Shown here: positions 3,657-20,190 of the stretch, one piece after another
Numbering within the stretch: position 1 is the stretch's first letter
Layout: each line of letters starts with the position of its first letter
Source: a virus
IMG/VR virus record: IMGVR_UViG_3300017605_000543
Span: 1 to 49,882 of that record
DNA length: 49,882 nt
Direction: 5' to 3' (one strand)
The notes under the pieces: generated by a model
What the model saw: only the letters and a program-made list of their open reading frames with translations
Databases searched by the model: none
Told to the model about the DNA's origin: nothing
Translations under genes and position numbers: made by a program

Positions 3657-4151
3657 CTAGCCTTTCCCGTTCGTGGTCGTGGTCGTCGTCGCGTCCGGCC
3701 TGCGGCCGTTGTCCGGCAAATAAAACTCAACCTTGGCGTGGGTGTCGCCGCTGCCATCCGCAGCCGCGCCTGGCCCGCGTAGCGTGACCGTAGCGATACC
3801 CCCACCGCCCTGGCCGCGCTGGCCGTACGTGAGTGGGTTTTTCTTTTCTAGCGACCACGCCGCAGCCTTCCAATCGCCTGCGAGCTCCGCGCGCGTGACC
3901 ACCGACTGCGAGCGCAACGTGTCGCGCGCTTGCGCCTTACGCACGGCCACCGCGAAATCGTAGTAACGCCGATCCTCTTTCGGTCCGCCGGTTTCCTCAT
4001 ACTTGGCACCGCGCGCCATCCAGTTCTGGTATGTGGTCTGCGAAATGCCGGCGGCTTCGATGGCGTGGTACGTGTAGCCACCTTGCCGGATTGCTTGAGT
4101 GATCTCCGCCTGGAGCTCTTTCGTGAGCTTGGAGTTTGCGCCGCGTGGCAT
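3657..4151 (-). CDS. terS: Terminase small subunit (DNA recognition)
   Basis: TerS proteins recognise the packaging site and present DNA to TerL. The ATG at 4151 (MPRGANSKLTKELQAEI) is preferred over an upstream in-frame ATG because it follows the preceding stop at 4156. The 164-aa protein has an N-terminal helix-turn-helix (ITQAIRQGGYTYHAIEAAGISQTTYQNWMARG), as in Terminase_2/HTH_Tnp small subunits. A helical oligomerisation segment follows (DFAVAVRKAQARDTLRSQ), then AAAWSLEKKNPLTYGQR, a typical TerS element. The tail is Gly- and Thr-rich. Confidence 0.85.
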   Translation of the reverse strand: MPRGANSKLTKELQAEITQAIRQGGYTYHAIEAAGISQTTYQNWMARGAKYEETGGPKEDRRYYDFAVAVRKAQARDTLRSQSVVTRAELAGDWKAAAWSLEKKNPLTYGQRGQGGGGIATVTLRGPGAAADGSGDTHAKVEFYLPDNGRRPDATTTTTTNGKG

Positions 4152-4155
4152 GGCA

Positions 4156-4503
4156 TCACCGCGCCAGCGCGGCACGCACCGCGGCGTCTTTCGATTCGAG
4201 CAACTTCCGCAGAGCGACCGTGCGCTCTGCGCAGCGCGGCAAGTTGTCCATGATGAATTCAGCCAGCACCGCGAACTGGGCGCTCACAGTCGCCAGCGTG
4301 GGCGGCAGGTGCTTGTATGAGAAATACTGCAGGATTGGCTCGAAAGCCTGCGGCGGTGGTGCCGGTGGTGTGCTGGGCGGCGTGGGCTCGTTTGATGTGT
4401 CGGTGGGCTCGGTGGGCTCGTCTGACATGTCCAGTTGTCCTTTCGTGATCGTGATGTAGGCAAACTTGCCGCTGTCCAAACGGATGCGCAAATGGTTGGA
4501 CAT
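4156..4503 (-). CDS. Small protein with an Acb2/Tad1-like helical hairpin (candidate cyclic-nucleotide sponge)
   Basis: The start is ATG at 4503, five bases after the stop of the methyltransferase gene; upstream in-frame sequence is only a shadow of that gene. The 115-aa product has a short N-terminal segment with LRIRLDSGKFAYITITKGQ, a disordered Pro/Thr-rich linker (about 30-50), and a C-terminal hairpin with FSYKHLPPTLATVSAQF, LAEFIMDNLP and ERTVALRKLLESKDAAVRA. This pattern matches the short phage proteins I associate with the Acb2/Tad1 hairpin family, whose characterised members sequester cyclic signals of CBASS or Thoeris. The family assignment is from memory of the motif and was not searched. 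Confidence 0.6.
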   Translation of the reverse strand: MSNHLRIRLDSGKFAYITITKGQLDMSDEPTEPTDTSNEPTPPSTPPAPPPQAFEPILQYFSYKHLPPTLATVSAQFAVLAEFIMDNLPRCAERTVALRKLLESKDAAVRAALAR

Positions 4504-4508
4504 CGGTG

Positions 4509-5723
4509 TTAGCCCCGTTCGGCTTTCTTCCCGGTTACAGCTTGCCAGCGTTCGATGATCACATCGCAGTATGCAGGCGAGATCTCGAGCGCCACGCACG
4601 TGCGGTCTAGTTGCTCCGCGGCGATCAGCGTGGTGCCGGATCCGCAAAACGGATCGTACACGACATCGCCTGACATCCCGTGATTGCGTATCGGCCTGGC
4701 CATGCACTCGAGCGGCTTTTGCGCTGAGTGCGTGGTTTCTTCGTTGGTATCGGTCGGACGATTCGAGATTTCCCACACCGTCGATTGCGTACGGTCGCCC
4801 GCCCAGCGCGCGGACGTGCCCTCACGCACGGCGTAAAAGCATGGCTCGTGCTGCCAGTGGTAGTGCCCACGGCCTGGCACCAGCCGGCCTTTCTTCCATA
4901 TGATTTGCGTACGCACACGCAGCGACGCCGATCCCAAGTCAACCTGTACACCCGCGCCGTTCGTGCCGCCGTGCCACACGTAAGCGACCGCACCCGTAAA
5001 CAGTTTGTATGCTTCAGGCCACGAACTGCGATCGTCGTTTTCAATCTTGCCCGTTCGCTCGCGCGTTACACCCTTGGGATTCATCCCGGATGCCTTTCGC
5101 CATGCGGCGTCGTACTGCACGCCATACGGCGGATCAGTCACCATGATAAAAGGCTCTAGCTTCGCCCTGGCCAGCGCCACGTGCTTCGCGTCCGTAGCAT
5201 CGCCACACACCAGCCGATGCCGACCGAGCAGCCACAGATCGCCCGCCTGCGTGACGGGCTCGGTGGGCGGCGTGGGCGCATCGTCGTCTGCGAGCTCCGT
5301 ACTCGAGCGAATCAGCCGCTCCATTTCTCGCAGGTCTTTGTCAACCCAACCCGCAAGCATCTGATCGCCCAGATCGTACGACCGCAGCAGTTCATGCAGC
5401 TCCGGCGTATCCCACTCTGCGAGCTCACCTAACCGATTGTCTGCGAGGGCCAGCAGGTGCGCTTCCCTCTCGGACAAATCCACGAAACGCACCGGCACAC
5501 GTTCCAACTTCAAAGACTGCGCAGCTTTCCAGCGCGTATGGCCCGCGATGATTTCGCGCGTGGCCAACCTGGCCACGATCGGCGCCGCGAAGCCGAACCG
5601 CTTGATCGATTCGGCGACCTTGACCACCGGTTCGCCATCGTTTTTGCGCGGGTTTTTGGCCCACGGTCGCAGCGATGCGATGTCTACCCATTCGGCGGCC
5701 GGAGCTGTGTTGTTCTCAGTCAT
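4509..5723 (-). CDS. ParB/Sulfiredoxin-fold domain fused to a DNA methyltransferase
   Basis: The start is ATG at 5723, in an ATGA overlap with the upstream nuclease-like gene. The 404-aa product has an N-terminal ParB-like domain (SLRPWAKNPRKND; IIAGHTRWKAA at 59-68; LADNRL at 93-98) and a C-terminal amino-methyltransferase with DPPY at 197-200 and DPFCGSGTT at 357-365. The DPPY-before-FxGxG order is the beta-type permutation, so it should methylate adenine N6 or cytosine N4. Such ParB-methyltransferase fusions are common orphan phage methylases. Coupling to an adjacent nuclease-like gene also allows a restriction-modification-like pair. Confidence 0.9.
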   Translation of the reverse strand: MTENNTAPAAEWVDIASLRPWAKNPRKNDGEPVVKVAESIKRFGFAAPIVARLATREIIAGHTRWKAAQSLKLERVPVRFVDLSEREAHLLALADNRLGELAEWDTPELHELLRSYDLGDQMLAGWVDKDLREMERLIRSSTELADDDAPTPPTEPVTQAGDLWLLGRHRLVCGDATDAKHVALARAKLEPFIMVTDPPYGVQYDAAWRKASGMNPKGVTRERTGKIENDDRSSWPEAYKLFTGAVAYVWHGGTNGAGVQVDLGSASLRVRTQIIWKKGRLVPGRGHYHWQHEPCFYAVREGTSARWAGDRTQSTVWEISNRPTDTNEETTHSAQKPLECMARPIRNHGMSGDVVYDPFCGSGTTLIAAEQLDRTCVALEISPAYCDVIIERWQAVTGKKAERG

Positions 5724-6349
5724 GTCAGCCCCTGCTCTGCTTTCCATGTCTCGAATCGTTCGCCGATTTGTATGTATTCGATGTCTGCATTTCGCAGCGA
5801 ATTGACGGCGGCAGCGTGCAACCGTTGCGGAGTCACCAGCACCGAACGAAGCACCTTTTTGCGCTCGCCCTGCATCTTCTCTAGCGTTTGCCTATACAAA
5901 CGAAGCTGCCGAATAACCTCACCAATGCTGGAAACGCTCGATTTCACTTCCACAAGGATTCGCGGCAGGTGCCAACTGTCGCTGATCCATACGACTTCCG
6001 GCGGACCTTCGCATTCTCGGATTTCGACAAGCTCAGCAACCAATCGATCCCTTTCAATGCCGTTCCATCCAACATCGCGCGGATACCGAAAGTACCTAAA
6101 AGATTCTTCGACTCTAATCAAAAGGTCTACAAATCCGACCTTGAAACCCCTCTCGCCACTCAAGAGATATTCCATCTCGGTTTGAGCGTGGCGATAGCAA
6201 ACGCCCGGAGTTTCCCCCGTGACCCGCCGCACAAATTCCTCTGCGTGCGCTTCGATGTACTGGCAGATATAGTCATGCTCCCGCGTGAACCGATCTAGGT
6301 CGCGAACGTCAAGCCGCGACGCCAGCGTGTTGCCGTGCGCGTGGCTCAT
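5720..6349 (-). CDS. PD-(D/E)XK-like nuclease, probable
   Basis: The 209-aa product has the acidic/lysine arrangement of a PD-(D/E)XK fold: E60 in TEMEYLL, D75 in GFVDLLIRV, E134 and K136 in RILVEVKSS, then a helix IGEVIRQLRLYRQ with Q148, followed by SVLVTP. No family name is recognised. The stop overlaps the start of the ParB-methyltransferase by ATGA, so the two should be translationally coupled. The domain could be a restriction-type or repair nuclease, or a degenerate DNA-binding version. The sequence is less GC-rich than its neighbours, which would fit transfer. Confidence 0.65.
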   Translation of the reverse strand: MSHAHGNTLASRLDVRDLDRFTREHDYICQYIEAHAEEFVRRVTGETPGVCYRHAQTEMEYLLSGERGFKVGFVDLLIRVEESFRYFRYPRDVGWNGIERDRLVAELVEIRECEGPPEVVWISDSWHLPRILVEVKSSVSSIGEVIRQLRLYRQTLEKMQGERKKVLRSVLVTPQRLHAAAVNSLRNADIEYIQIGERFETWKAEQGLT

Positions 6350-6389: not shown

Positions 6390-6719
6390 TCATGCATCCT
6401 TTTGCTTTTGCTCGACAAATCCCGCTCGAGCCCTGATTGTGTCACGTCGTATGCGTCTGACAGTTCGACGCACCGCGATCCGCGCCATCGCGCATGCGTC
6501 GCCACGATCAATCGCGTACCCAATACCGAGCACGATCTCACCACGCGACACGTACACGACCCAACCCACGCCATCGTGCCACTGCTGGATACGCCACACC
6601 GTCGCGCGCGGTGGCGGTGGCAGCGGTTCACCGAACAACAAGACCTGCAGCCACACCTTGAACCACTGCCACGCACGCCAGGCGTGGGACGCCTTGACTG
6701 CGACCGCCGCCACGGTCAC
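6390..6719 (-). CDS. Hypothetical protein
   Basis: The start is GTG at 6719, in a GTGA overlap with the stop of the RuvC-methyltransferase gene; a GTG at 6728 is also in frame. The 109-aa product has a Trp-rich N-terminal third (HAWRAWQWFKVWLQVLLFGEP) that could be membrane-associated, a short Pro run, a beta-rich middle (ATVWRIQQWHDGVGWVVYVS) and a basic C-terminal helix (RIAVRRTVRRIRR). I do not recognise it. A role at the membrane is speculative. Confidence 0.6.
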   Translation of the reverse strand: MTVAAVAVKASHAWRAWQWFKVWLQVLLFGEPLPPPPRATVWRIQQWHDGVGWVVYVSRGEIVLGIGYAIDRGDACAMARIAVRRTVRRIRRDTIRARAGFVEQKQKDA

Positions 6720-8071
6720 AGCCGCCACGGCTCGAGCTCCACGTATTCACGCCCGGCCGGCACTTCGCCCGGCGCACGTGCCACGATTTCAAAAGCCATG
6801 TAATCAGTCTTGCCGCCGCTAGCTGCATCCGTGCGACCGAATGACGGCCGCAGCACCAGCGGTGCCAGGCGCGTGATCCGCGTAACAGACCAAAGCGTTT
6901 CGTGTCTTTCCTTGCCGTGCAGTAACGACGTCTTGAAGATCCCGCACACGCGTCGCGAATACTTGAGCGCGTGCACGATGAAAGCTTCCGCTTTACCGAG
7001 CTCATACGGCGGATTCATCAGGCACAGATCGAAGATGTCCGGCCCGCCGCCGGCCAAAAAATCCCCGCACCGTGCAGTGATGGTGACGCCCGGCGGCGTG
7101 CGCATCGCTGCCAGGATCGCCACGTTCGCAGGATCCAAGTCGATGGCCGTGATCTGCGTACACGCATGCGGTGCGGCCAACACGGGCTCTAGCAGCGCGC
7201 CCAAGCCGGCAGAGGGCTCGAGCACGGTCACGGGCTCGCCGCCCTGCAGCGCCCACCGCCACAGCGCTGCAGCTGCTTTGGGCGGTGTGTACCACTGCGA
7301 CCTTTCCCGCTGCTCGCGCGTCAACTTCCGCTGGTTCACCACGACCACGCGCGGCAGGTCTGCACGCTGCGACGGTGCGCCATCCGGTGCGAGCACCGGT
7401 TTACGCGCGCCAGGCTGCACGGTCACCGCATCACGCCCAAGCACCGCGCCAACTTCCGGAGCTCGCTCCGCCCACACGCCGATCAAGATCGCGGCCGATT
7501 CATCGGGCCCGGTGGGCCCGCCCACCAGCGCCTGCGCTGTCGTACGTTCGTGTTCGCGGATCACATCACGCCGCATACTTGTGTACGCCGGTCCGAGTAC
7601 GTGACGCCGCCACCGCGATGGCTCGATTTTGACGACTCGCCGCTCATGCAGTCCGACCGCTCGCCAGGCCGTGAGCCACCGCTCCCGCGCCGCACCGAGG
7701 GCCATCAAAACGGCTTTGTTACCCCCATACGGTGATTCCAGAACAAGCACCGGTGCGAGCCCCAAAGCTTGGGCGTCGTGCACGAACCACCGCACAATGT
7801 ACGACAGCGCATCACTGTCCAGGCTTTCAACCTCACCATACGCAGACTGCACACCTGCGTAGCGTGCCGACCACCCAGATCGCCCGGCGGTGTCGACCGC
7901 GAGCACGGCACAGCGCCAGGGCAGTGCGGCGTACCCCCGTAGTCGCACCAGCTGGGCCTGCGTTGGCTTCCGGCGTGGCGGCCGGCGCACGTACGCGGTA
8001 GCCCGCTTGCGTGGCGCCTGGCGCCGTCCAGGTGCCTTCGTGACTGCGCGCTGTGTTCTAGTCGCACTCAT
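6716..8071 (-). CDS. RuvC-like resolvase domain fused to an N6-adenine DNA methyltransferase
   Basis: The start is ATG at 8071 in an ATGA overlap with the upstream gene, giving 451 aa. Residues 1-45 are basic. Residues about 55-200 look like a RuvC-type RNase H fold: D60 in VLAVDTAGRSGW, E112 in LVLESPYGG, KIEPSRWRRHVLG near 148-160 and D190 in GPDESAAILIG. The C-terminal half has methyltransferase motif I VLEPSAGLG (283-291), AIDLDP (309-314) and NPPY (353-356), diagnostic of adenine-N6 methylases. Both active sites appear intact. A single protein that could resolve branched DNA and methylate adenines is unusual. Confidence 0.85.
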   Translation of the reverse strand: MSATRTQRAVTKAPGRRQAPRKRATAYVRRPPRRKPTQAQLVRLRGYAALPWRCAVLAVDTAGRSGWSARYAGVQSAYGEVESLDSDALSYIVRWFVHDAQALGLAPVLVLESPYGGNKAVLMALGAARERWLTAWRAVGLHERRVVKIEPSRWRRHVLGPAYTSMRRDVIREHERTTAQALVGGPTGPDESAAILIGVWAERAPEVGAVLGRDAVTVQPGARKPVLAPDGAPSQRADLPRVVVVNQRKLTREQRERSQWYTPPKAAAALWRWALQGGEPVTVLEPSAGLGALLEPVLAAPHACTQITAIDLDPANVAILAAMRTPPGVTITARCGDFLAGGGPDIFDLCLMNPPYELGKAEAFIVHALKYSRRVCGIFKTSLLHGKERHETLWSVTRITRLAPLVLRPSFGRTDAASGGKTDYMAFEIVARAPGEVPAGREYVELEPWRL

Positions 8072-8535
8072 AGCCAAACCCCGTCAATCCGCAGGCCAAC
8101 CCGCCTGCACACGGCACCCAGCGACCACCCAAGCGGCCGCACCGATTCGCCCAGCTCACCCAGCGCTACGGCCCGCGACAGCCGCCAAAGCGGGCTTGCG
8201 GCTTTGGCAGTGAGCCACCCAGCCACGTCTCGCGGCCAGGCCCGGTCGTGCTCCGCAGCGAGCCACAGCGCGTGGAGCTCGAGCCCGGCCAGCGTGGGGC
8301 GTGGCTCGCCCGGCGGCGGCGGTGCGGCTGTCGACACTCGCAGCGCCACCGCCTGACCCGTCCTAGCCAGCACACAGCCGATGCAGGCCGGGATCGGCAG
8401 GGCGCTTAGCGTCCGCAGGTCACACTGGGCGGCTTCGAGCGCTGCGACCGTCACCACCTGCGGGACGGCATGACTAGCGGCGGGCAACCCAAGCCGGGGC
8501 ACACGGCGTGTTGGTGGCGTTCTAGATTCCGCCAC
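8068..8535 (-). CDS. Hypothetical protein
   Basis: The GTG start at 8535 is preceded by a purine-rich AGAAAG stretch about 10 nt upstream. The 155-aa product is Ala/Leu/Pro-rich, with CDLRTLSALPIPACIGC near 39-55, a Pro-rich linker (APPPPGEPRP) and a helical C-terminal half rich in Trp (LHALWLAAEHDRAWPRDVAGW). No known family is recognised. Its stop overlaps the RuvC-methyltransferase start by ATGA, which ties it to the replication operon. Confidence 0.6.
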   Translation of the reverse strand: MAESRTPPTRRVPRLGLPAASHAVPQVVTVAALEAAQCDLRTLSALPIPACIGCVLARTGQAVALRVSTAAPPPPGEPRPTLAGLELHALWLAAEHDRAWPRDVAGWLTAKAASPLWRLSRAVALGELGESVRPLGWSLGAVCRRVGLRIDGVWL

Positions 8536-8926
8536 GTTCGCCGCTTTCTATAAATAACTGGGCTCGTTTGGACTCATTTGGACTATAGCTTGGACTATAG
8601 CAAATCCAATCATTACATATACTTAGAGCCCGATTTATGGGTATAGCCCAGTTAGCACGGGTGTCGCCTCGCGTATGCGCGCGATGTTTTTTCTCAGGTG
8701 TCCCGCCGGATACTGGCTGACGCCCAAGGTGCGATACCGCATCACCCCGGCACACAGTGGTGCCAAGGAAAAATCTCACGCACATACGCGAGGCAGACCC
8801 CGTGCTAACTGGACTAGTCCCCAAAACGCGGTCGCAAGTATGCGAAACCATTGCGCCAGGGTGAGCCCATGGGCTAGTCCAAATGAGTCCAAACGAGCCC
8901 AGTTTTTTGTGAAAACTGGCGCTCAT
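8522..8926 (-). CDS. Doubtful reading frame spanning the inverted-repeat element
   Basis: This 134-aa frame starts in an ATGA overlap with the stop of the primase-helicase and runs 14 bp into the next gene, so its position is operon-like. Its sequence, however, comes almost wholly from the 349-bp inverted repeat. The same peptides (HTRG..RANW, SPNESKRAQ) are encoded on the other strand from the other arm. The composition, with many Ser, Cys and Trp, is atypical. I favour a non-coding element, but a translated product cannot be excluded. Confidence 0.25.
   Translation of the reverse strand: MSASFHKKLGSFGLIWTSPWAHPGAMVSHTCDRVLGTSPVSTGSASRMCVRFFLGTTVCRGDAVSHLGRQPVSGGTPEKKHRAHTRGDTRANWAIPINRALSICNDWICYSPSYSPNESKRAQLFIESGERGGI
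8556..8904. repeat. 349-bp imperfect inverted repeat element
   Basis: The outer arms 8556-8585 and 8875-8904 are perfect 30-bp inverted repeats (left arm begins AACTGGGCTCGTTTGG). Further in, 8648-8661 pairs perfectly with 8799-8812 (14 bp) and 8666-8677 with 8783-8794 (12 bp), with weaker complementarity between and towards the centre near 8730. The outer arms also contain internal repeats of GTCCAAA-type words. The element lies between the primase-helicase and downstream genes. It could be a replication origin, a structured RNA, or a non-autonomous mobile element. Confidence 0.8.
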
Positions 8927-11571
8927 TCGGCCAGCTCCACAATTTGCAAGAGCTCTACTACCTTGATTTGGCGTCCAGCGATTCGGACGCGCATGTCACA
9001 GCGGCCGGCGTCACATCGTGACCACCCGCGGCTCGCCCACAGCCGTATGACAACCTTCGCTGCGAGTCTATGGCGGCCGCAGAAATCCGAAAACTCGGTG
9101 GGCAGCACATACAGCGCATCGCCACTCCGAAAGCCGCGGAGCCGCTGTCCAGGTCGGATCACAGGCAAACACAGCCCGCCCGAAGTTGACATCGTGGCCA
9201 CCGGGAAACCATCCGGATCTGACAGTGCCCAATCTTCCACCAGCTGCCGCGCGCGCTGGGCGAGTGATTCGACCATGCTGGCCTGGCAGTGCTGCTGATA
9301 CGCAGCGCACATCCGGTCGCCCTGATTGCCGAATCCGATCCAATGGGCCATCGCTTCCGCGGTGGCGAGCGTCGCGAAATAGTGCGCCGTGCGTGCGTGG
9401 ATGCCGGGATCGTGCTCGCCGCCGGGCCCTGCGGCTTCGCGTGCGTAGCGCTGGAATTCCGCCAAGTATTCGGCGTGGTGCTGTCGCCATGCGGGCCAAT
9501 CGTCGATGTCCACAAGCATCTGCAGCCATTGGCGGCCGAAGTTGCCCGCGTGCTGGGCGCACGCCGCACGCAGCCGATCGATCGCGGTCGGTGTCAGCTT
9601 GCCGAATCCGGCCAGCGGCACGTTGATGATCCGTGTCCGCACGCCGGTGGCGCTGCTGTCCGACATCAAATCGCGCTCACCCGTGGATATGAGCACCGTG
9701 CGCCAGTGCTGGGTTTCACGCAGCGCCAGATCCCGCTGCGCACGCGTGCGGCCGGTGCCGTTGATCAGCATGTACACCATGCGATCGAGGGCTTCCGGTT
9801 CGCCGCCGCCGATTTCGTCGTAGCACTGCGGCAGGTCCGACAGCATCGCAGCGCGCAACTCAGCACCGGCGCCGGTCGCATTCCACGACGCCAGCCACTG
9901 CGGATCGTGCGGATCGCCGTACACGGATCCCGCGATCCGCAGCATCGATGTTTTGCCGGTGCTCGATTCGCCCGACAGGTGCACGCCGAAATTCGGCGCT
10001 GACAGCGGCTCGAGCAGCGGTGCGGCCAGCGCTGCGGCAATCACCAGCGCGCACGACAGGTCCGCGTCCCACGCCTCGCGCAGAGCGGCCACGTGGCTCA
10101 CTGCGTCACCACGCGGCCGCAGCGCGGCGTATAGTCGCTTTCGATCGCCACGTGAATCTAAAGCGACCTGTCCAGCAGCGCCGGCCGGCACACCGCGCGC
10201 GGTGATTGGTTCGCTGGACACAAAAGCCCGCTGGCCGTCCACGTCGTGCCACCCTACCCGGCCCACAGACTTGACCACGGGTATGTGTGCGGCGTTGACG
10301 GCGCCCAAGGCGTGCAGCCAATCGATCGTCTTGCCGGCGTTCGACGACGTGATCGGTGCACCGTACGCGCCGAGCTCCGCGACGCACGTGCGCGCATCGA
10401 CCATGGCGGACCGTGAGATGCATTGCGACGTCCACGAATCCGGCCCGTTGTGTTGATACGTGACGTCAACACGACCTTCGCCCGTGTACAGGTCTTCCAA
10501 ATACCGCTCGATCAGGATCGGGCCTGCGGCGCTGATCAGCTGGGCGCCGCCTTGGCGTTCTGCGACGCCCACACGCCACAGCGTGCCATCGTCGCGCACG
10601 TCGTACCCATCAGGCAGCACGCACGCTTTGGGCACCGGTGCGGCGGCCAGCGCCTTGACTGCATGGATACGTGCGCGCGGGTTGGACGGATCGATCGGAT
10701 CAAGCGGCGTGGCGGCACGCAGCACGGCCAGCGTTGCGTCTAGCCCGTGCTTCGCGAAATAATCGTCGATCCCCTTGCACGCCGGATCAGGCGAGCACGC
10801 GAGCACCACCGATGCCGCACCGTGGGCGTGGAGCACGCCGGCCAGGCGGCACGCAGCGCGCATCACTTGCCCGTTCGTGCGCGCGTCGCCGTCGAACACG
10901 ATCACATGCTGCCGCGCTGCTACGTGCACGTAGTCACGGATCAGCGGGTGCAGTTGCACGACTTCCGCATGCGACGTGCCGGGCTCGACCCAGTTATCCA
11001 CACCAGTTAGGCCGATGCACGGCAGGCCCAACTGATCGAGCAGCAGAGCCTTTTTCTCGCCTTCCGTCCAATACATCGGCGGCGGTGGTGCGGGTGCCGG
11101 ATCCACACCAGCTGTCGGCGGTGCGGCGGCCGGATCCTCACCAGCTGCCGGCGGGCCGTACGCACCGGCCATGCGCGCGCGCGGTGGGTAGTACACCACC
11201 GAGCCAATGCGGTGTGATTGGTCGTACTTGATGGCCCGCGGCTTCGACCCACGGGCGTCTACACGCGGCGTCGTGGGCTTGACGCGATACACGTACGGCG
11301 CGACGTCGCCAGGCAGAAAGAAAGGAAAAACCAGCGCGGCGCCGCAGCTCCGCGGGTACGTGCTGCGATCAACCAGCATCCCGATCGCGCGCGGCGACAG
11401 CTCCGTGTACAGCGCCGCAAGCGCGATGGTTTCATCTGTCAGGCCCGACGCATGCAGCTCCGCTGTGTGGGCGGTGCTGCATTCACGCTTGACCGGCAGT
11501 GGCACCACCACGCGCCGCGGCGTGGTGGTGGGGCGTGACTTTGTGATCGGGCCGTCTGACACGGCTTTCAT
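8923..11571 (-). CDS. Primase-helicase: TOPRIM (DUF3854-like) plus DUF927-type helicase
   Basis: This 882-aa protein is the main replication enzyme in the window. Residues about 75-130 resemble a CHC2-less primase N-domain. A TOPRIM-like DUF3854 region has the glutamate in TEGEKKALLLDQLGLP (169-184) and the acidic pair in VIVFDGDA (223-230). Residues about 320-870 match the DUF927 superfamily-3-like ATPase, with Walker A GESSTGKTS (534-542) and Walker B CYDEIGGG (583-590). A Pro/Ala linker sits at 140-166. No DNA polymerase is encoded nearby, so host polymerase use is likely. It is coupled to the upstream gene by ATGA. Confidence 0.9.
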   Translation of the reverse strand: MKAVSDGPITKSRPTTTPRRVVVPLPVKRECSTAHTAELHASGLTDETIALAALYTELSPRAIGMLVDRSTYPRSCGAALVFPFFLPGDVAPYVYRVKPTTPRVDARGSKPRAIKYDQSHRIGSVVYYPPRARMAGAYGPPAAGEDPAAAPPTAGVDPAPAPPPPMYWTEGEKKALLLDQLGLPCIGLTGVDNWVEPGTSHAEVVQLHPLIRDYVHVAARQHVIVFDGDARTNGQVMRAACRLAGVLHAHGAASVVLACSPDPACKGIDDYFAKHGLDATLAVLRAATPLDPIDPSNPRARIHAVKALAAAPVPKACVLPDGYDVRDDGTLWRVGVAERQGGAQLISAAGPILIERYLEDLYTGEGRVDVTYQHNGPDSWTSQCISRSAMVDARTCVAELGAYGAPITSSNAGKTIDWLHALGAVNAAHIPVVKSVGRVGWHDVDGQRAFVSSEPITARGVPAGAAGQVALDSRGDRKRLYAALRPRGDAVSHVAALREAWDADLSCALVIAAALAAPLLEPLSAPNFGVHLSGESSTGKTSMLRIAGSVYGDPHDPQWLASWNATGAGAELRAAMLSDLPQCYDEIGGGEPEALDRMVYMLINGTGRTRAQRDLALRETQHWRTVLISTGERDLMSDSSATGVRTRIINVPLAGFGKLTPTAIDRLRAACAQHAGNFGRQWLQMLVDIDDWPAWRQHHAEYLAEFQRYAREAAGPGGEHDPGIHARTAHYFATLATAEAMAHWIGFGNQGDRMCAAYQQHCQASMVESLAQRARQLVEDWALSDPDGFPVATMSTSGGLCLPVIRPGQRLRGFRSGDALYVLPTEFSDFCGRHRLAAKVVIRLWASRGWSRCDAGRCDMRVRIAGRQIKVVELLQIVELAE

Positions 11572-19380: not shown

Positions 19381-19417
19381 TGATGTGTCAGGGCGACTCA
19401 TCAAGGGCGACACATCA
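19381..19417 (+). promoter_or_regulatory. Inverted repeat overlapping the parA start
   Basis: TGATGTGTC (19381-19389) and GACACATCA (19409-19417) are perfect 9-bp arms separated by 19 bases. The right arm ends at the A of the parA ATG, so protein binding or an RNA hairpin here would directly affect parA expression. Autoregulation by the partition proteins is likely but not shown. Confidence 0.6.
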
Positions 19418-20190
19418 TGGCAGCAACGGCGGCGACAGGCGCGGTGTACGCGGTCACGAATCAGAAAGGCGGGTCGTGCAAGACGACGACCGCGATCAAC
19501 TTGGCGGCCGAGTACGCCGCACGCGGCAAGCGCGTACTGCTGATCGATCTAGACCCGCAGGGCAACGCCGGCACGTCGCTGGGCGCACCGCCCACCGATG
19601 GCGCGCAGCTGGTGGCGGCGATCGTCGATGGCGCCACCATGCCGATCATCGACACGGCGGCCGGGGTGTCGCTGGTGCAGTCCGGGCGGGCGCTGGCCAA
19701 GATCGATCGGCTGCTCGCAGGCGAGCCCGGTGCGGAGACGCTACTGCGGCACGCCCTGCGACGCCTGCCAGGCCGGTGGGATCTGGTGCTGCTCGATTGC
19801 CCGCCCACGCTGGGCCTGATGTCACACCTGGCCCTCACGGCAGCGCAGAGCGTGATCGTGCCGGTCTACACGGAAGCGGCGCCGCTGGAAGGTGTCGCAA
19901 CGCTGCTGGATACGCTCGCCAGCGTGCGTGAGCGACTCAACCCGCAATTGACGATCGCCGCCGTGGTGGCATCGCGAACAACTAACACGCGGCTGTCGCG
20001 CGACGTCGAAGCCGCTCTGCGTGACCGGTTTGGTGCGGCGATGTGCAAGACAGTGATCCGGCAGAACGTGAAGATCTCGGAATCGTATTCTCACGGTGCT
20101 CCGATCCGCGTGTACGCACCGGACAGCGCCGGGGCGCAGGATTTCGCGGCACTCGCAGCAGAGCTCATCCGACGCAAGGCGGTGCACTGA
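19417..20190 (+). CDS. parA: ParA partition ATPase
   Basis: The 257-aa Walker-type ATPase has the deviant Walker A NQKGGSCKTTT (near 14-24) with the signature lysine, the A' motif LLIDLDPQGNAGTS (45-58) and Walker B LVLLDCPPTLGLM (near 122-134). It lacks an N-terminal HTH arm, as in type Ib ParA or Soj-like proteins. ParA drives segregation of low-copy replicons by gradients on the nucleoid. It is followed by a ribbon-helix-helix partner overlapping by TGATG, which makes a partition operon. In a phage this implies maintenance as a plasmid. Confidence 0.93.
   Translation: MAATAATGAVYAVTNQKGGSCKTTTAINLAAEYAARGKRVLLIDLDPQGNAGTSLGAPPTDGAQLVAAIVDGATMPIIDTAAGVSLVQSGRALAKIDRLLAGEPGAETLLRHALRRLPGRWDLVLLDCPPTLGLMSHLALTAAQSVIVPVYTEAAPLEGVATLLDTLASVRERLNPQLTIAAVVASRTTNTRLSRDVEAALRDRFGAAMCKTVIRQNVKISESYSHGAPIRVYAPDSAGAQDFAALAAELIRRKAVH

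Follow-up and report, generated by a model that had tools for sequence, protein, structure and literature searches.

Does one gene of this virus encode a RuvC-like resolvase and a DNA adenine methylase on the same polypeptide chain and, if so, what could such a protein do? Resolvases and orphan methylases are both frequent in phages. The gene in question lies in IMG/VR record IMGVR_UViG_3300017605_000543, of which the whole stretch of 49,882 nucleotides was analyzed (hereafter ‘the window’). An earlier note on this DNA had proposed the fusion and had added that it knew of no characterized protein with this architecture, a statement that stands within the literature searched (subscription papers mostly lay outside it), where no RuvC–methylase fusion is described. 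Here, we argue that the protein probably reflects a single fusion of two neighboring genes, one for a divergent RuvC-fold domain that would process or bind junctions and the other for an orphan methylase that probably marks phage DNA. Taken singly, the halves belong to enzyme types that are ordinary in phages; the join and the changed acidic motif of the first half are the points that look undescribed.

Reading frame and domain layout

The fusion gene occupies positions 6716–8071 on the minus strand (start ATG at 8071, end at 6716) and encodes a protein of 451 amino acids (aa) comprising a RuvC-fold domain, a linker, and a gamma-type amino-methyltransferase. An open reading frame (ORF) of this length had already been placed at these positions, with the strand left unstated; the plus strand of 6716–8071 holds no ORF of that size. 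At 8071, the start of the fusion gene and the stop of the upstream gene overlap by four bases (ATGA), which makes the 451-aa product the likely protein; an alternative TTG start at 8077 would yield 453 aa. On the 451-aa reading, the residues singled out previously (D60, E112, D190, motif I at 283–291, and NPPY at 353–356) are numbered correctly, and they are invariant in the five fused homologs, save for variable positions within motif I.

The protein begins with an Arg/Lys-rich extension predicted with low confidence (residues 1–53; 7913–8071), followed by the RuvC-fold domain (residues 54–215; 7427–7912), as delimited with AlphaFold2, Foldseek, and VIA. A variable linker (residues 213–257; 7301–7435), mostly with pLDDT below 50, leads to the methyltransferase domain (residues 258–451; 6719–7300), assigned by a match to phrog_799, a fold match, and alignment. 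The linker measures 45 aa in the window and 45–84 aa in the three fused homologs measured, differing in both length and sequence. Because the AlphaFold model of the full-length protein is weak (pLDDT 52), the orientation of the domains was not taken from it. Fold predictions, motifs, and the profile match support the proposed architecture of a RuvC-like resolvase fold joined to an N6-adenine-type methylase.

Authenticity and origin of the fusion

The existence of a relative with overlapping separate genes (L042, described below) would suit the suspicion that a sequencing or assembly error has joined two genes, but we regard such an error as next to impossible: a scan of IMG/VR recovered the whole fused protein in four further contigs from three metagenomes (L001–L004), with both halves in frame in all five fused contigs and with variable linkers. 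Best-segment identity to the window protein is 89% for L001 and 50–52% for L002, L003, and L004. Between the window and L001, dN/dS is 0.09 and 0.06 for the two halves; among L002–L004, it is 0.12–0.16 and 0.16–0.22. Since these values for close pairs (0.06–0.22) are well below 1, both halves are evolving under purifying selection, and with the four other fused contigs they exclude the frameshift that the earlier note had named as a possible source of the join. When the two fused groups are compared, conservation is higher in the RuvC-like half than in the methylase half (about 66% versus 52%). The fused group is a small set of phages known from metagenomes.

In related phages, the two parts also occur as separate genes. 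In L042 (IMGVR_UViG_3300003203_000001), which has both domains, their order, and the upstream genes in common with the window, there are two ATGA-overlapping ORFs in place of one: a RuvC-like gene with a GTG start (4411–4965) and a methylase gene, in a different frame, whose start at 4962 overlaps the RuvC-like stop by 4 bp. The pair lies apart in L050, with other coding sequence in between, and in L041, with a cytosine methylase gene in between. The latter, recognized by eye as a C5-cytosine methyltransferase gene (about 3700–4680 of L041), is an example by which the slot collects modification genes. A RuvC-like gene is likewise present in L048 and L051, and no methylase of the phrog_799-type family was found in these two contigs; the RuvC-like half can therefore fulfill its role without the methylase.

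In the trees of each half, the five fused proteins form one clade (support 100/100 and 98/98), and one fusion event is therefore enough; most likely, two neighboring genes of the replication module were joined once. The product of the first ancestral gene would have been a divergent RuvC-fold protein, and that of the second, a small orphan gamma-type N6-adenine methyltransferase. The join could be neutral, a small indel having removed the stop between coupled genes while the halves stayed independent and the join was without effect. We consider this quite possible, and it overlaps with our preferred reading of a single fusion, in which the join may or may not have an effect. The 4-bp overlap of genes in different frames in L042 and the freely varying length and sequence of the linker accord with neutrality, but the join has persisted in five contigs over divergence to about 50–65% identity and is thus at least well tolerated. 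As separate, overlapping, and fused states coexist in related phages, the effect of the join is directly testable.

Genome neighborhood

The common gene order is g11568 – primase – g8068 – RuvC-like – methylase – (g6390) – ParB-methylase – g3657 – terminase. In the window, a primase/helicase gene with DUF927 and DUF3854 (8923–11571, minus strand) runs in the same operon direction as the fusion gene and is followed by a 155-aa gene of unassigned function (8068–8535, minus strand), which stands ahead of the RuvC-like gene in relatives with and without the fusion. The product of this 155-aa gene, which is the one coupled to the fusion gene by ATGA in the window, shares 33–84% identity among relatives, and its search returned no family matches. 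Downstream, a small gene (6390–6728, minus strand) is kept behind the fusion in L001–L004, and a second methyltransferase gene with ParB_N and N6_N4_Mtase domains (4509–5747, minus strand) retains its synteny.

At the corresponding place, a sister group of phages (L020, L023, and L025) has a canonical RuvC (phrog_159, E about 1e-32), located between g11568-type or replication genes, where present, and the ParB-methylase. Neither the window nor L001 contains a match to phrog_159 or RusA. A RusA-like reading of 2997–3461 in L021 proved unsupported. Recombination-dependent replication would fit with three further products of the window, namely a Sak4-like annealing protein, a PD-(D/E)XK exonuclease, and a RecD-like helicase.

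The RuvC-like half

Modeled alone by AlphaFold2 from five natural sequences, the N-terminal domain reached a pLDDT of 75 and a pTM of 0.70, with the predicted order b1-b2-b3-aA-b4-aB-b5-helices-last helix. The top twenty Foldseek rows in the PDB for this model are all RuvC or MOC1 resolvases. VIA alignment gave Z scores of 11.7 for Thermus thermophilus RuvC and 10.9 for Escherichia coli RuvC (RuvC/MOC1 range 10.0–11.7), the next group being Tex at 9.1. The full-length model independently matches Deinococcus radiodurans RuvC (4.6e-5), alongside methyltransferases. The N-terminal half, previously supposed to be RNase H-like, is accordingly so in structure prediction and PDB comparison, with RuvC and MOC1 on top, and is predicted to fold as RuvC.

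Matches at the profile level are weak but agree in pointing to resolvase PHROGs (phrog_1770, E 0.001–0.004, spanning nearly the full profile; phrog_827, 0.048; phrog_159, 0.058). No Pfam model matches the RuvC-like half, and its comparison with seven phage RuvCs by hhalign yielded nothing usable. Searches with this half found nothing by tblastn in 50,697 phage records, nothing that was confirmed in a scan of genome contigs, and only chance matches among PDB sequences; a weak match in Synechococcus phage S-N03 was dropped, as it lies antisense to an annotated gene.

Compared with cellular RuvC (E. coli, 1HJR; T. thermophilus, 4EP4) and chloroplast MOC1, the domain has the same predicted fold, at the Z scores given above, but only 10–18% identity, one carboxylate position lost, and no Pfam family. 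With phage-type RuvCs (that of Lactococcus phage bIL67, PDB 4KTW; phrog_159, phrog_1770, and phrog_827), it shares the predicted fold, the genome place, the first Asp, the strand-4 Glu, and the Asp at the helix start, and two conserved Arg residues ahead of the last helix, as a pair, may match basic residues of the DNA cleft of bIL67 RuvC (PMC3864405). It differs from them in having Ala or Pro for the canonical last Asp, in its very low similarity, and in the fused methylase.

The methyltransferase half

The C-terminal half matches phrog_799 (DNA methyltransferase) with E 2.2e-16. Motif X (SQWYTPP; 7280–7300), invariant among the aligned methylases, is followed by the SAM-binding motif I (LEPSAGLG; 7199–7222) and by motif IV (NPPY; 7004–7015), the latter two placed by alignments and all three on the minus strand; the order X–I–IV with NPPY is that of gamma-type amino-methyltransferases. 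The full-length model, of low confidence, has 310 PDB matches at E ≤ 0.001, and among the 50 listed nearly all are methyltransferases, including the type I restriction-modification subunit 3lkd. NCBIfam matches are weak and mixed, some being to rRNA methylases. Judging from the motif, we infer adenine in DNA to be the target of the methylase half.

Phage orphan gamma-type N6-adenine methyltransferases (phrog_799; TaqI-like X–I–IV order) have the same SQWYTPP, motif I, and NPPY, whereas here the enzyme follows a RuvC-fold domain on the same chain. Beyond NPPY there are only about 95 residues, and by length and alignment no separate target-recognition domain is visible; the stand-alone methylase relatives (in L018, L020, L021, L041, L042, and L050) are equally short. 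A scan of genome contigs with the methylase half confirmed no match. Among cultured phages, one instance of a methylase beside a resolvase, NinG, was seen in Aeromonas phage 2_D05. Separately, L021 encodes at 4001–4600 a methylase of the same family with NPPW, not NPPY, in motif IV.

The acidic center

The active site of RuvC consists of four carboxylates. In the window protein, D60 (7892–7894, minus strand) lies at the end of strand b1 and aligns with D7 of E. coli RuvC, a placement based on the VIA alignment, in which model residue 18 pairs with RuvC residue 1. E112 (7736–7738, minus strand) ends strand b4 at the position of E. coli E66. The last helix starts with D190-E191-S192-A193 (7493–7504, minus strand), where D190 takes the position of E. 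coli D138 and A193 that of D141. The motif reads D-E-(S/A)-(A/P)-A in the ten RuvC-like members, and D60, E112, D190, and E191 are invariant among these relatives down to 41% identity. In the inferred register, all ten have Ala or Pro where the canonical last Asp would stand, while this Asp is invariant in the seven phage RuvCs compared. The ‘apparently intact’ acidic set of the earlier note thus stands for D60, E112, and D190 and fails at the canonical last Asp.

The register of the last helix is taken from the ends of phrog_1770, a profile with matches to canonical RuvCs as well as to a family member (L050), and from the position of the helix, assuming no gap in the final stretch; it puts the Asp of the relatives at the earlier position and Ala or Pro at the canonical one. 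In an alternative register, the canonical Asp would be kept and the D138-type Asp absent instead. By sequence comparison, then, at least one of the four carboxylates is absent, and which one depends on the inferred register. Holliday junction resolvases have an extra Asp three residues ahead of the canonical last Asp (PMC3985635), and in NtMOC1 Ala at any one of the four acids abolished cleavage, while MOC1 catalytic mutants still bind junctions (PMC7078210). Because the canonical Asp was not found, we do not file the domain as a proven RuvC member. The family-wide loss of a usual acidic residue raises the question of whether these proteins cut with a rearranged center or bind junctions only.

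On the second of these options, a nuclease-dead RuvC fold would serve as a branched-DNA-binding module in place of the target-recognition domain that the methylase lacks. The missing Asp in all ten relatives, the methylase half with no visible target-recognition domain, and the junction binding retained by the MOC1 mutants all point that way, but four residues invariant to 41% identity would be unusual for a dead site, the RuvC-like gene of L048 and L051 has a role of its own without this methylase, and sister phages place a canonical RuvC at the corresponding site. We therefore think this reading rather unlikely. The invariance of D60, E112, D190, and E191 argues for a kept function. Cutting of branched DNA by the modeled domain is plausible; its active site lacks the usual last Asp.

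Proposed function

In the preferred reading, a single fusion of a junction-processing or -binding domain with a marking methylase, the RuvC-fold half would bind, and probably cut, branched DNA arising in recombination-dependent replication, and would fill the place of the phage resolvase where sister phages have a canonical RuvC. The bIL67 RuvC is a proven resolvase that cuts forks and Holliday junctions (PMC3864405). The methylase half, having no target-recognition domain of its own, would methylate adenines of the phage DNA, most likely as protection from restriction by the host; orphan phage methylases shield phage DNA from restriction (PMC4190342). Through the join, the methylase would be recruited to DNA that is branched and newly replicated, or the two enzymes would be kept at one amount and place; alternatively, the join would have no effect of its own. 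A bifunctional enzyme, in which the RuvC-fold domain with its altered acidic center steers adenine methylation to branched DNA, strikes us as improbable; if true, junctions would be processed and newly replicated phage DNA marked in one coupled step.

RuvC folds are structure-directed rather than methyl-directed, and this speaks against the proposal of a self/non-self discriminating nuclease, that is, a restriction-modification or defense-like enzyme that cuts DNA without the methyl mark. A methylase and a nuclease-fold domain do share one chain, and the methylase half weakly matches PADLOC type II methyltransferases and MADS mad2, but the RuvC-like half has no defense-model match, the gene sits within a phage replication and packaging block of conserved synteny, relatives encode both parts as separate genes, and sister phages have the canonical RuvC. 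We thus set the proposal aside as very improbable. No cognate restriction nuclease is conserved beside the methylase in the loci searched, and the stand-alone RuvC-like protein has no PADLOC match.

Other genes in the window

Between g6390 and the ParB-methylase gene lies an ORF of 209 aa (5720–6349, minus strand) with a PD-(D/E)XK-like pattern (FVDLLIR ... ILVEVKSS). Neither the close relative L001 nor any other locus searched has a counterpart, and the ORF has no family match and no PADLOC match; it may be a nuclease gene that was inserted recently. A ParA-like ATPase, recognized by eye, is encoded at 19417–20190 on the plus strand of the same genome as the ParB_N-methyltransferase fusion; the two are possibly the partition system of a plasmid-like phage.
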